This document shows positions 5,761-64,000 of a stretch of 64,000 bases of DNA, piece by piece. Where the stretch lies: contig NC_092562.1 of NCBI RefSeq assembly GCF_037975245.1, forward strand, positions 25,355,054-25,419,053, in the 5' to 3' direction. The DNA is from Apostichopus japonicus. Its lineage: Eukaryota; Echinodermata; Holothuroidea; Aspidochirotida; Stichopodidae. The first letter of the stretch is position 1. Each line of letters begins with the position of its first letter. The notes beneath the pieces were generated by a model. It worked only from the letters and a program-made list of their open reading frames with translations. It was not told the origin of the DNA and ran no database searches. The translations under genes were made by a program, and so were the position numbers.

Positions 5761-8584
5761 ATAGCTGCATGTGCACTACGACCGCACTGTCGTAGCTTAC
5801 GGTGTCTCTTTTAAGTATTGTAAAGTGTTCTCCCCCAGTAATTTGTTCCTTCTCTTTATCGACCGTTGCCCAACGCTATTTATTTACGCATCCAATTTAC
5901 ATTTGCCAGATTTTGCTGATTAATTTAACCGAGTCTTTCCGGGTAGGGTAGTATGAGGTGCTCTTTCCGATAGTCTCTCTTACCATGCTAACATCTGCTT
6001 AATGTAGTCGTCCACAGATCGGATGTACTTTTCAATTATCAAAGTAAAGTTCATACGGCATTTTGTAATTGGTACTTCTATGTGTTTATTGTGCAATAAA
6101 CTTGATAAGAAAAGTTATAACGATAACAATGATGATATCTATTAAAGATGACATTACGACAAATTAAATGAAAATAAAAAACATAAACCCGCAGAACCAT
6201 CTATGCTAATGGAAGTACTTTTGACTTCAAGAAAAAAAATCGAAAATGTTGAGACAGAATATATGAGGTTAAATAATTGTTATGACAGCATAAATTGATC
6301 TTTTATGACAGATTAAATCAATTTTTACGACATACTGTGTTATAACAAAAATATTGAACTATTTGTTTCGTGAGAAGCAGTAATCTGTTATGACAAAATG
6401 ATACCAGATAGCCAGTTAGCTTTGTAATTCCTTGCCATACGCTTTGCTCAAAATTTCCACATCACTATCAGACTAATGTAGAGCAAGTGAGTTAAATTTG
6501 TCTAAGAATTAAGTGAGAACCAAAAAAGATCAGAGATTTCTAGCCCTGGTATGTATCACTCACTTGTGGGCATCGACCAATTAATTCACTGGTAAGGATT
6601 TAACAGTACAGAATTTTTAATCCAAAATGTTTCAATATCCAGAAAGAACAGTACTGTTATGTGAAATATCTATACAAAGATTTATAAGTAGAAGAAAACT
6701 GTCTTTTACCAGTTGTGAGCTAGCAAATCATTTCTGACACCAACCATGCCTTTACTAATTGTTATTAATGAACTAAAGTTATATAATACATTGCTAATAC
6801 ACTTGAAATATTTTCACAACCCAATGCCATAGCAAAACCCATCTTGTATAAATCACAGAGAAAATGGCCAACTTTGAGACTATTTGAGATAACCTGTTCT
6901 CCTCGTTAAGCTCAGAGGGTGAAAACTGATAAGAGCCTGCCTGAGTGTGATTTAAGCAAGACTATCAACTCTCTGAAGCAGAGTTCATTCCTTGGAAGAC
7001 TTAGATCTTATATAGAGCCCCCTCACAAAACTAAGTGAACAGAATTGACCAAACTATGTTCACCAAACGAAAATCATAGTATTGAATTCACACATTAATT
7101 GTAGCTCTTATTTCGGAGTTATCGTGTTAAGGTTATAAGGTTTTCAGAATTTGACACCTGTTGAACTCATTTGATCTTGCACTCACCAAGCTGGACTACG
7201 TTCAACAAAGATGTGCTTTTTTGAGTTATCGTGTTTACAAGATTTTCAAACTTTGACTTGGACGTTGACCGCAAATGACCATTGAACTTCACAGAGAACA
7301 ATAAGTTTCTTGTACTCAATAAGACGGAACCACATACCAAGTATGAAGTTAAGCCAACGAGAACTCTTAAACGGTGTTTACAAACTAATGTCACATACAT
7401 ACACACACACCCGCACAAACGCCGTCACCATCACTTAGAGATTCCTTTTGCTTCCGGCAAAGAATTAAAAAAATGTTATCACAATTACATTAAATAATCT
7501 GTTCCGACCGATCAAATAATCTGTTCATACATAGTAATAATAATAATACGTTTTGATAGAATCAATAATCAACTCAAATCAACTCTATAACATCAATGAT
7601 GTTGTAGCTCGATGAATGTTTATGAAGTGACTTATTTGTACAAACTATCACGTGTCAAACACTAGCTGTCTACTGTTTTGCTGCTTCATGTAAGCAGTTT
7701 CACCTTTCGTTCGCTTAAAGTAGGCTAAAATTTGCGACTGCCTCTAAGCTGACAAGAACAATTCGCTGCGACCTTCTTTCTCGCCAGTCCAGTCCAGCAA
7801 AGCTTTGGTTTCTTCATTAGCGGTTTTATTTTAGTGAAATTGTTTCTTTTTCTTCTTTTTCCTTTTATATTAATTATTATTTTTTTTTTGGAAATTTTTT
7901 TTAAGCTAGAAAATCCTACAATATTTACAAAAAACTAAATCTTTCTGGTAGACCAAAATTTCAAGCTTTTTGGAGTTTTTATTCGAGAATCTGTTGCTTG
8001 TCAAAACACTTAATTTCTTCCTTCAGATTATGGACGCTTGTCAGTTACTTCCATAGTAAATACTTCCTTTTGAGAGGAAGCATATTTAGAGATTTTGGTG
8101 AGGCTTCCCTTTGAAAGACACTGACCCCAGTTCCCACTTTTAAAAGCACCAAATAGTGCAAGTTGGGGCAATATATAGCCATTATGACATAATATTTTAT
8201 TTAATTGAAATCAAGTCTTTGCACAGTTCGACCCCTGGGCTCACTTATCTACAGGCAATTCATTTGGTACACTTTCACAAATTATGACCCCATTTGACCT
8301 CAACCAGACAAGCAAAGCTAAGTGTCGGCCACAGAGAGATACTAAGACTGCTGATATAAATAATCATGAACCGTAACTTATTTCATGTTTTCTAATGTAA
8401 CATGCTCACAATGAGCTCTGAACTATTCTAATACACTACCGTATTGTGTAACTTCAAAGACTGAATTGCTTAAATAAAGATTGCTGAAAATCTGAACAAG
8501 CCTCTATGCAGGTTTGAAGCATTCTTCCTTTAGCTGCTAATAGCTTCATATGACCTTTGGCCTTATATTACAGTGCCGTTGCTT
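5761..8584. other. Unit 1 flank downstream of TRIM-A, gene-free
   Basis: Non-coding DNA colinear with the same position in every unit. It includes motifs recurring within the flank, such as GAGTTATCGTGTTTACAAG and TTTGACACCTGTTGA around 7110-7260. It belongs to flank type 1, shared with unit 4: both lack the TATGAGG stretch after CTGGACTAC that units 2, 3 and 5 carry. No domain-bearing reading frame was seen. Confidence 0.6.
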
Positions 8585-9208
8585 TTAAAGCAGCATTTGC
8601 GTTGGGTCGCTTTTTTCCACTTTTTTAACATGTGCATCGATTTTTTTACATGTATCAATCATAAAACAGCAATCTAAGATACCATCCAAGTTTCACCCTG
8701 CCAAGAGCGTTAATTAGCGAGTAATTAACGATTTATGTCGATAAATGAGAAGAGTGTCCTCGACAAATTTCACAGTTAAAATTAATCGCATACAATTCCG
8801 CCAAACCCACTAGTTTGAATTCAACCAATCAGAGATGCAGGTTTAGTTATGAGCCGTTGCTAAAAATAGATTCAAGACTTCGCGTTGGTTGTACCAGGGA
8901 GTTGTTATGCAACTCCCTGGTACAACTGCCATATAGACTGTACACAAATCAAGCGTGGTGTTATATTACGTATCTGTCAATGACGTTCGTAGTGTTTAAA
9001 TATTCATATTATGGGCGAGGTTTATTGGGTTCCCAACGGAAAATATCTTGGAGAACAACAAAGTTGAAAGTTGCAAATTTTTCGACTTTTATGCCACCAT
9101 TTGAAGTAAAATATAATATAGATTAGCTAGTTATGTAGGTCGTTATGGCAAAGTGAAATCAGTGAGGTTGAGAAAAATAATAGAAAATGACGCAAAATGC
9201 TGCTTTAA
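8585..9208. mobile_element. 616-bp MITE with TTAA target duplication
   Basis: The element spans 8589-9204 and is flanked by TTAA at 8585-8588 and 9205-9208. Its ends are inverted repeats: AGCAGCATTTGCGT on the left, and AGCAGCATTTTGCGT when the right end is read on the minus strand (one extra T). Units 3 and 4 show the empty site, where CTTTTAAGCCAC or CTTTTACGCCAC runs straight on. A perfect 17-bp hairpin lies inside at 8888-8926. There is no transposase, so it is non-autonomous. TTAA targeting is known for piggyBac-type transposases, but the ends do not begin CCC, so that link is tentative. Confidence 0.8.
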
Positions 9209-9245
9209 GCCACTATCAACGGAGTATTGTTACAGACTTTCATGT

Positions 9246-61767: not shown

Positions 61768-62566
61768 CCCACCTTGATTTCGGTTCTGATTTGAGAGGTG
61801 GCAAACTCTATACATACAGTCTATTTAAACCACCCGAGTGTTCTCTTTCAGGGAAAGTACTTATACAAAGAAAAACAGGAGATTATGTTAACATTTAACA
61901 TTTCTATATGTTATGCTTATTGTGTCAGAGTACACGAATGGAAGTACACGAGGTGCAATAATTGGGTCAATTGAGACAATTATAGAACACTCCACGCCTC
62001 CCAGGGGCAGCGTACGAAACTTTTTTACAACTGCGTGAAGAGGTCTGTTTACAAGTGAAGAAAACGTCAGGCCGTCATAACGAAAATATTCATTGTCATG
62101 ATTCGCAAACATTGAAGGGGTGCGAATTGGCAACTTATCGGCTATCCAGTGAGGGGTAGGGTTAAGCTAGTGAGAAGGACGTATAGAGACCAAATTATAC
62201 GTTGAAGAGTTAGTGTTTAAGTCAATGCATGTATTATCCGGATTATGCTACCTGAGACCGACATGGTATTGATCGTTTGAGATGGACGGGGTGGGGGTCT
62301 TAAAGGGGGGAGGAGAGGGCGTATCATACCTGTCCTTGGTTGCTTCCCTATGGCTGCATGTGCATTATTAAGCTAGTGAGAAGGACGTATAGAGACCATA
62401 TTATACGTTGAAGATTTAGTGTTTAAGTCAATGCATGTATTATCCGCAGTATGCTACCTGAGACCGACATGGTATTGATCGTTTGAGATGGACGGGGTGG
62501 GGTCTTAAAGGGGGAGGGGAGGGCGTATCACACCTTGGTTGCTTCCCTATGGCTGCATGTGCATAA
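61768..62566. repeat. Boundary repeat R, unit 5, with internal tandem duplication
   Basis: R followed by a direct duplication of about 206 bp: 62162-62367 and 62368-62566 both run from TTAAGCTAGTGAGAAGGACG to GGCTGCATGTGCAT. The two halves differ at a few sites. Confidence 0.85.
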
Positions 62567-64000
62567 CGACCGCACTATCGTAGCTTACGGTGTCTCTTTT
62601 AAGTATTGTAAAGTGTTCTCCCCCAGTATTTTTTCCTTCTCTTTATCGACCGTTGCCATCGCTATTTATTATCGCATCCAATTTACAATTGCCAGATTTT
62701 GCTGATTAATTTAACCGAGTCTTTTCGGGTAGGGTAGTGAGAGGTGCTCCTTCCGGTAGTCTCTCTTACCATGCTAACATCTGCTTAATGTAGTCGTCCA
62801 CAGATCGGAAATACTTTTCAATCATCAAAGTAAAGTTCATACGGCATTTTGTACTATGGCACTACTATGTTTTTATTGTGCAATAAACTTGATAAGAAAA
62901 GTTATAACGATAAAAATGATGATATCTATTAAAGATGACATTACGACAAATTAAATGAAAATAAAAGATAGAAAACCGCAGAACCATCTATGCTAATGGA
63001 CATACTTTTGACTTCAGGGGAAAAAATCGACTATGTTTGAGACAGAATATATGAGGTTAAATAACTGTTATGACAGCATAAATTCATCTTTTATGACAGA
63101 TTAAATCAATTTTTACGACATACTGTGTTACAACAAAATTATTGAACAATTTGTTTCGTGAGAAGCAGTAATCTGTTATGACAAAATGAAACCAGATAGC
63201 CAGTTAGCTTTGTAATTCCTTGCCATACGCTTTGCTCAAATTTCCACATCACTATCAGACTAATATAGAGCAAGTGAGATAAATTTGTCCAAGAATTAAG
63301 TGAGAACCAGAAAAGATCAGAGATTTCCAGCCATGATATGTATCACTCACTTGTGGGCATCGACCAATTAATTCACTGGTAAGGATTTAACAGTATAGAA
63401 TTTTTAATCCAAAATGTTTCAATATCCAGAAAGAACAGTATTGTTTTGTGTAATATATACATAGATTTATAAGTAAAAGGAAACTGTCTTTTACCAGTTG
63501 TGTGCTAGCAAATCATCTCTGACACCAACCATCCCTTGAATAATTGTTATTAATGAACGAGAGTTATATAATACATTCTTTATACAATGTGAAATATTTT
63601 CACAACCCTATGTCATAGCAAAATTTTGACACCTGTTGACCTCTTTTGATCTTGCAATCACCAAGCTGGACTACGTATGAGGTTCAACAAAGATGTGCTT
63701 TTTGAGTTATCGTGTTTACAAAATTTTCAGACTTTGACTTGAACGTTGACCGCAAATGACCATTGAACTTCACAGAAAACATTACGTTTCTTGTACTCAA
63801 TAAGAACCACATACCAAGTATCAAGTTAAGCCAACGCGAACTCTTAAAACGGTGTTTACAAGCAAGTGTCACATATATACACACACACCCACACAAACGC
63901 CGTCACCATCACTTATATTCCTTTTGCTTCCGGCAAAGAATTAAAAAAATGTTATCACAATTACCTGAAATATTCTGTTCCGACCGTTAAATGATCTGTC
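62567..64000. other. Unit 5 flank, gene-free, cut by window end
   Basis: Type 2 flank (TATGAGG near 63676). About 300 bp seen in unit 2 (24912-25213) are missing at 63620. Alignment with unit 3 places the window end about 1.3 kb short of the expected stop codon of another TRIM copy. Confidence 0.6.

Follow-up and report, generated by a model that had tools for sequence, protein, structure and literature searches.

Mosaic units in a tandem TRIM-type gene cluster of Apostichopus japonicus and their relation to a (TA)n(TG)n tract

The window analyzed here, the 64,000-nucleotide stretch C2:25355054-25419053 of the Apostichopus japonicus genome (a 671.6-Mb assembly in 35 contigs), contains TRIM-type genes, each a single open reading frame (ORF) on the minus strand, arranged as four tandem units (A to D) and a partial fifth one, E (also called unit 5). 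We found that these units are mosaics: the flank downstream of a gene and the gene itself have different trees, the duplicated blocks have a structure of their own, and copies change partner in several zones. The locus thereby combines out-of-phase duplication blocks and mosaic copies, with intact copies standing beside broken ones. Recombination between the units, as claimed in an earlier note made from the sequence alone, is strongly supported by the differing trees and by the rejection of 22 out of 25 tree swaps between segments. The same note placed the breakpoint at a (TA)n(TG)n tract located just past each stop codon; mosaicism is confirmed, but the microsatellite as the breakpoint is not demonstrated.

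Different trees for flank and gene

Units A to D provided 167 informative quartet sites. On the flank side of the tract (left), 91 of 93 sites grouped the units as AD|BC, with one site each for AB|CD and AC|BD, and on the gene side, beyond the tract, 66 of 70 sites were AB|CD and the other four AC|BD. Three sites inside the tract and one in an insert private to A were set aside from these counts. Most of the AB|CD sites (58 of 66) lie at A 11005 or beyond, that is, in the 5' part of the gene and the upstream DNA, so that the split into A+B and C+D mainly groups this part of the unit; between the tract and position 9814 there were only three quartet sites, one of them AB|CD and two AC|BD. The features concerned are the following (window positions):

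9427..11676, minus strand: gene A, TRIM-type, open frame of 749 amino acids, RING and B-box above the Pfam cut-offs
26511..28763, minus strand: gene B, broken by an in-frame stop into ORFs 26511-27941 and 27942-28763
46264..48447, minus strand: gene C, TRIM-type, open frame of 727 amino acids
55827..58066, minus strand: gene D, with a frame change (ORFs 55827-57335 and 57290-58066) and a gene body of the G/J type
5451..9204: flank A, on the downstream side of gene A, of the H type (identity of 97.6% with flank H and 92.7% with flank D)
22195..26340: flank B, partner of flank C; 97.2% over 15478 to 25435, a stretch starting upstream of gene A
41554..46017: flank C, B-like to about 44.62-44.67 kb and E-like beyond
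51433..55525: flank D, paired with flank E in its far part and with A/H and G/J in its near part
60811..64000: flank of unit E (unit 5), truncated by the window end; far part D/G/J-like, near part C-like
9245..9321: (TA)n(TG)n tract of unit A (Tandem Repeats Finder)
26340..26382: simple-repeat tract of unit B (Tandem Repeats Finder)
46076..46158: (TA)n(TG)n tract of unit C (Tandem Repeats Finder)
55563..55605: simple-repeat tract of unit D, with more TA/TG runs up to about 55718

The cluster continues beyond the window. A genome search returned ten close copies (A-E, F, G, H, I and J) with 91-100% identity across the full query length as well as a divergent, partial copy, K, all of them within about 300 kb; these counts are lower bounds, as 40 of the 174 search candidates were scored. 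F and I lie on the strand opposite to the other close copies. The longest frame starting with ATG spans 727-751 amino acids in seven of the ten close copies, and three copies are broken, with longest frames of 453 (B), 466 (D) and 324 (I) amino acids.

Trees were built from the eight same-strand copies among the 11 places A to K (six of the 11 for the far-upstream segment), omitting F and I, whose flanks hardly align, and the divergent, partial K. With eight copies, the far-flank tree contained the clades (A,H) and (B,C), the near-flank tree (A,H) and (C,E), all with a support of 100, and the gene-body tree (A,B) with 99 and (D,G,J) with 100; at the start of the gene and further upstream, (E,H) formed a clade supported at 100. 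Imposing the tree of one segment on another was rejected in the 22 cases mentioned above, at a cost of 40-710 log units, which rules out one tree for the whole unit, and the three swaps that were not rejected all involve a 500-column segment starting at the tract. Different segments of one unit thus have different trees, as in a recombining tandem array. We consider it barely conceivable that the copies share a single history in which convergent substitutions, rate differences or misalignment mimic a switch. Inserts and the repeat do misalign locally, but such errors would have to account for the cost of the rejected swaps, and the partner switches persist on gap-free columns with the tract masked.

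The units and all motifs named in the earlier note are present and split the window units as described there. KDC/RDC and CSKES/CCKES separate A and B from C and D, and so does CTAGTT/CTAATT after the stop codon, for which the wider set of copies gives CTAGTT in A, B and H and CTAATT in C, D, E, G and J. In the flank, we located the gap versus TATGAGG after CTGGACTAC at A 7191, B 25258, C 44628, D 54151 and unit 5 63666, and GACCCCTGGG versus GACCACTGGG at A 8230, B 26182, C 45689 and D 55168; the unit 5 copy of the GACCACTGGG motif lies just beyond the window, at C2:25419780. The two groupings proposed on the basis of these motifs had to be revised in part. The flank grouping A+D versus B+C reflects almost all quartet sites left of the tract, but once additional copies are included the partner of A's flank is H, and flank D is 94.9% and 94.4% identical to flanks G and J, respectively. 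Likewise, A+B versus C+D for the gene and its upstream DNA agrees with the quartet sites of that side and C+D is accepted upstream, but gene D belongs with G and J (98.7% and 98.5% identity, versus 94.7% to C); gene C is 96.8%, 96.5% and 96.0% identical to A, B and H, respectively. The separate trees left and right of the tract that the note had called for differ with strong support, and the same grouping on both sides was not obtained, an outcome in favor of the note's claim of recombination.

As a candidate grouping in its own right, a C+D clade was rejected left of the tract (p 9e-8) and in both gene-body segments tested, from +400 to +900 (p 4e-4) and at the 5' end of the gene (p 2e-4), where positive offsets are counted from the stop codon into the coding sequence and negative ones denote the flank. 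It passed upstream (p 0.41) and was also unrejected in the uninformative segment right of the tract (p 0.14).

Partner switches and the (TA)n(TG)n tract

Comparison of sites located several changes of partner, among them two intervals inside the coding sequence of window genes:

9711..9757: A changes from H-like (non-B) to B-like; best single switch, with H at 287 of 309 sites to the left and B at 122 of 130 to the right
46570..46671: C ceases to be E-like; last E site at +306, first site of a run of B sites at +407

Of the positions that distinguish H from B, 19 lie between the tract and 9711, and A shares the H state at 16 of them; of the 20 from 9757 to 10284, it shares the B state at 19. 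A thus turns B-like within the ORF, 390-436 bp beyond the tract; before 9711, C would fit as its partner as well as H does. Unit E agrees with C at 13 of the 14 sites between +106 and +375, and with D at all 17 between +382 and +556. Gene C is clearly E-like up to +306 and mixed past that, and its flank switches from B to E between 44619 and 44669 (B at 164 of 172 sites to the left, E at 135 of 254 to the right). The least clear copy is B, with its best single switch at 26390-26472, beside its tract, followed by mixed sites from 26472 to 27003 and mainly A-like ones after that. The permutation test behind these single switches shuffles sites and ignores linkage, and is thus weaker evidence than approximately unbiased (AU) tests. 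Separately, we observed a divergent patch inside the coding sequence of C (46664-46764, around +400), with a mean identity of 91.5% versus 95-97% in the adjoining bins.

The earlier note had concluded that the tract must be the breakpoint. In our analysis, the tract falls inside a plateau of possible positions and is not singled out. A four-unit likelihood scan for a single breakpoint peaked at A 9326 (gain 182.4), the grid point that directly follows the tract on its right; all positions from A 9326 to 9526 were within 2.3 log units of it, and in an eight-copy scan the whole range of 8.5-9.8 kb was within about 8 log units of the best. In the 396-column segment to the right of the tract, A+B and A+H both went unrejected (p 0.35 each). 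Identity among the copies does change stepwise at the tract, with bin means of 91.8% (-600), 86.9% (-300), 80.3% (-200, tract included), 93.5% (-100) and 97.8% (0). When gapped columns were kept, a copying model had D and H switch in or near the tract under both settings, and C under one of the two. Part of this signal is misalignment against A's insert and against a deletion in G and J, and the model was therefore rerun on gap-free columns with the tract masked (4365 columns, three settings). Masking leaves a hole from -455 to -99, in which a switch there and back would escape detection.

Under two of the three masked settings, six of the eight copies (A, C, E, G, H and J) kept a single partner across the tract. 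A remained on H until +328 (switch at +328/+329), H on A until +284 (+284/+285), C on E to +380 or +381 (+380 to +383) and E on C to +375 (+375/+376), while the pairing of G with J lasted to about +2.05 kb, and that of J with G to +1.38 to +1.98 kb. Two copies switched close to the stop codon: D exchanged A for G as its partner at -20/-19, and B left C for H between +50 and +104, and H for A at +490. Towards the 5' end of the gene, J exchanged G or D for A near +1.97 kb, and E and H became partners of each other at about +2.1 to +2.2 kb. Under the most permissive setting, the third, A moved from H to C at -463/-462 and E was placed on J from -99 to -17, having changed to J across the masked hole and then back.

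Could the tract itself nevertheless be a breakpoint or recombination hotspot, as proposed for the GA/GAT repeats at Sp185/333? The position of the four-unit peak, the climb in identity from -600 to 0, the gapped-model switches of D, H and C and the masked-model switches of D and B would all be in line with such a role. We nonetheless regard it as unlikely, given that the likelihood gain is nearly flat around the peak, that four of the six copies that hold their partner across the tract change it 0.28-0.38 kb inside the ORF, that the gapped-model signal is in part misalignment and that the remaining switch zones contain no such tract. In G and J only a remnant of the tract is left, which makes these two copies a weak test of it.

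Duplication blocks and the wider cluster

The duplicated blocks do not coincide with the units. Block A and block B are 95.3-100% identical from 9860 to 24829 (at least 97% in 37 of 40 steps, unaligned inserts apart), and 92.0-96.7% identical from 24829 to 26340. Block C matches block D from 49110 to 53378 at 97.0-100% in all 13 aligned steps. These matches tie gene A historically to flank B and the upstream DNA of C to flank D. Identity in the upstream DNA correlated with identity in the far flank of the following unit (r 0.77, a value reached in 3 of 24 permutations; 0.72, 4 of 120, with G-H added) and not with that in the far flank of its own unit (r -0.30; -0.25 with G-H added).

We consider ordinary unequal exchange together with gene conversion in a tandem TRIM-type cluster, with blocks out of phase and later exchanges on top, the probable explanation. 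Duplication blocks extend from within a gene across the DNA upstream of it and into the flank of the next unit; a block that spans a gene and the next unit's flank makes gene A pair with B and flank B with C. Shorter and later exchanges could then have overwritten parts of units, for example the stretch shared by C and E from about -1.6 kb to about +0.38 kb, which spans the tract. Partner switches recur in the flank, 0.28-0.38 kb from the stop into the coding sequence, and toward the 5' end of the gene, with the well conserved gene body possibly serving as the substrate. In favor of this explanation are the well-supported trees that differ from segment to segment, the block matches, the upstream correlation, the partners kept across the tract in the masked model, and the resemblance of the single-gene locus H to A on the left side and to E on the right. 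Several points weigh against it: the near flank breaks the register rule (r -0.07 and 0.00), so that later exchanges have to be assumed; B's row in the upstream matrix is based on 279 bp and the sample is small; block identity drops 1.5-2 kb short of the next tract; crossing-over and conversion are not told apart; and an assembly artefact remains a candidate. Nothing outside the ordinary kind of recombining tandem array is established here. Since block register and later exchanges yield the same picture, the microsatellite need not be its cause.

Outside the window, the left side of locus H matches A (25359459-25363641 with 25528400-25532560, 96.3%) and its right side matches E (25420212-25425324 with 25532594-25537700, 96.0%). 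With a spacing of about 115 kb, a partial gene copy recurs (97.6%) and F recurs as I (98.0%), and G recurs as J at 114 kb (95.6%). As only parts of the 300 kb were compared, we infer, as the simplest reading, a segmental duplication in which one copy carries a single gene (H) and the other five (A-E).

Alternatively, two haplotypes of a very heterozygous animal could have been set side by side in the assembly, making some of the copies alleles. The identity between the A-E side and the H-J side is 96-99%, which is within the range that alleles of marine invertebrates can show, and the reappearance of the partial copy and F as partial copy and I would fit such a false duplication. However, neither the window nor the 8.1 kb separating G from H contains a run of N, the arrangement with five genes is unlike that with one, and the mosaicism within A-E requires exchange between different units regardless. 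We therefore hold this alternative to be rather improbable, if slightly less so than a tract-driven origin.

The partial gene copies themselves (207-210 bp, plus strand, at about C2:25447250 and C2:25562674) each come with upstream-type DNA and are set in duplicated surroundings. To the right of the cluster, at C2:25668824-25679053, we noted a satellite-like array that repeats about every 225 bp. Elsewhere in the assembly, the COX1 of contig C35 (16,099 bp) is readable as a conserved protein under genetic code table 9 (AAA as Asn), in line with an echinoderm. On the minus strand of a second contig, C29 (31,219 bp), fragments of COX1 contain TGA codons; C29 may be a redundant mitochondrial contig.

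TRIM-type proteins and comparison with Sp185/333

The products of genes A and C carry a RING followed by a B-box, the order that characterizes TRIM (RBCC) proteins, with Pfam scores above the cut-offs of 21 (zf-C3HC4) and 24.1 bits (B-box) in A (36.2 and 25.2 bits) and in C (37 and 27.3 bits). Their best PDB matches are TRIM56, TRIM28 (TIF1-beta) and TRIM2/3, and a TIF1-beta chain aligns to residues 33-310 of A, from the RING onwards. A coiled coil may follow the B-boxes. The proteins thus resemble TRIM (RBCC) E3 ligases in their RING and B-box and differ from them in the C-terminal part, which matched no Pfam family at E 0.001.

The Sp185/333 (SpTransformer) family of the purple sea urchin is the nearest precedent that we found. 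PMC3091723 and PMC5103432 describe clustered, similar genes with simple repeats near each gene, tandem segmental duplications and steps in conservation at the repeats; GA repeats flank every gene on both sides, GAT repeats lie at the edges of duplications, and duplication and diversification mediated by microsatellites are proposed, not proven. Clustering, adjacent simple repeats, tandem segmental duplications and a conservation step at the repeats are common to both systems. Unlike in Sp185/333, the genes here belong to a TRIM-type family, the (TA)n(TG)n tract sits next to the stop end of the gene and is reduced to a remnant in G and J, and the duplication blocks do not end at it. Furthermore, three of the ten close copies are broken here, whereas the Sp185/333 family is reported to have no pseudogenes (PMC5103432). 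No publication on the sea cucumber locus turned up in the topic literature, which was not searched by locus name.

The cluster might also serve immune diversification, in that a preferred exchange end 0.28-0.38 kb inside the coding sequence would re-pair the last ~100-125 codons with differing amino-terminal parts, and the copy number at one site would swing from one (H) to five (A-E); we regard this as quite doubtful. Independently of such a function, the locus provides a readable example of a tandem gene family shuffling its parts, and a warning that a switch of trees beside a microsatellite need not be caused by the microsatellite. If confirmed in other individuals, it would offer a second cluster in which the diversification by simple repeats proposed for Sp185/333 could be tested by mapping exchange ends.

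The window also contains several inserts. The one private to A among the aligned copies (8588-9204, ~0.6 kb) has terminal inverted repeats, AAGCAGCATTT...AAATGCTGCTT, and looks like a small DNA transposon. Upstream of gene A, the insert at 12373-15477 contains two ORFs (12532-13641 and 13864-15030), the second of which matches the reverse transcriptase family RVT_1, and another insert upstream of gene B (28979-33192) has no counterpart at the matching place in A. Finally, 16920-18944 and 36277-38285 are internally repeated, with repeats of a few hundred bases and TA/TG runs, and are alike in both long units.

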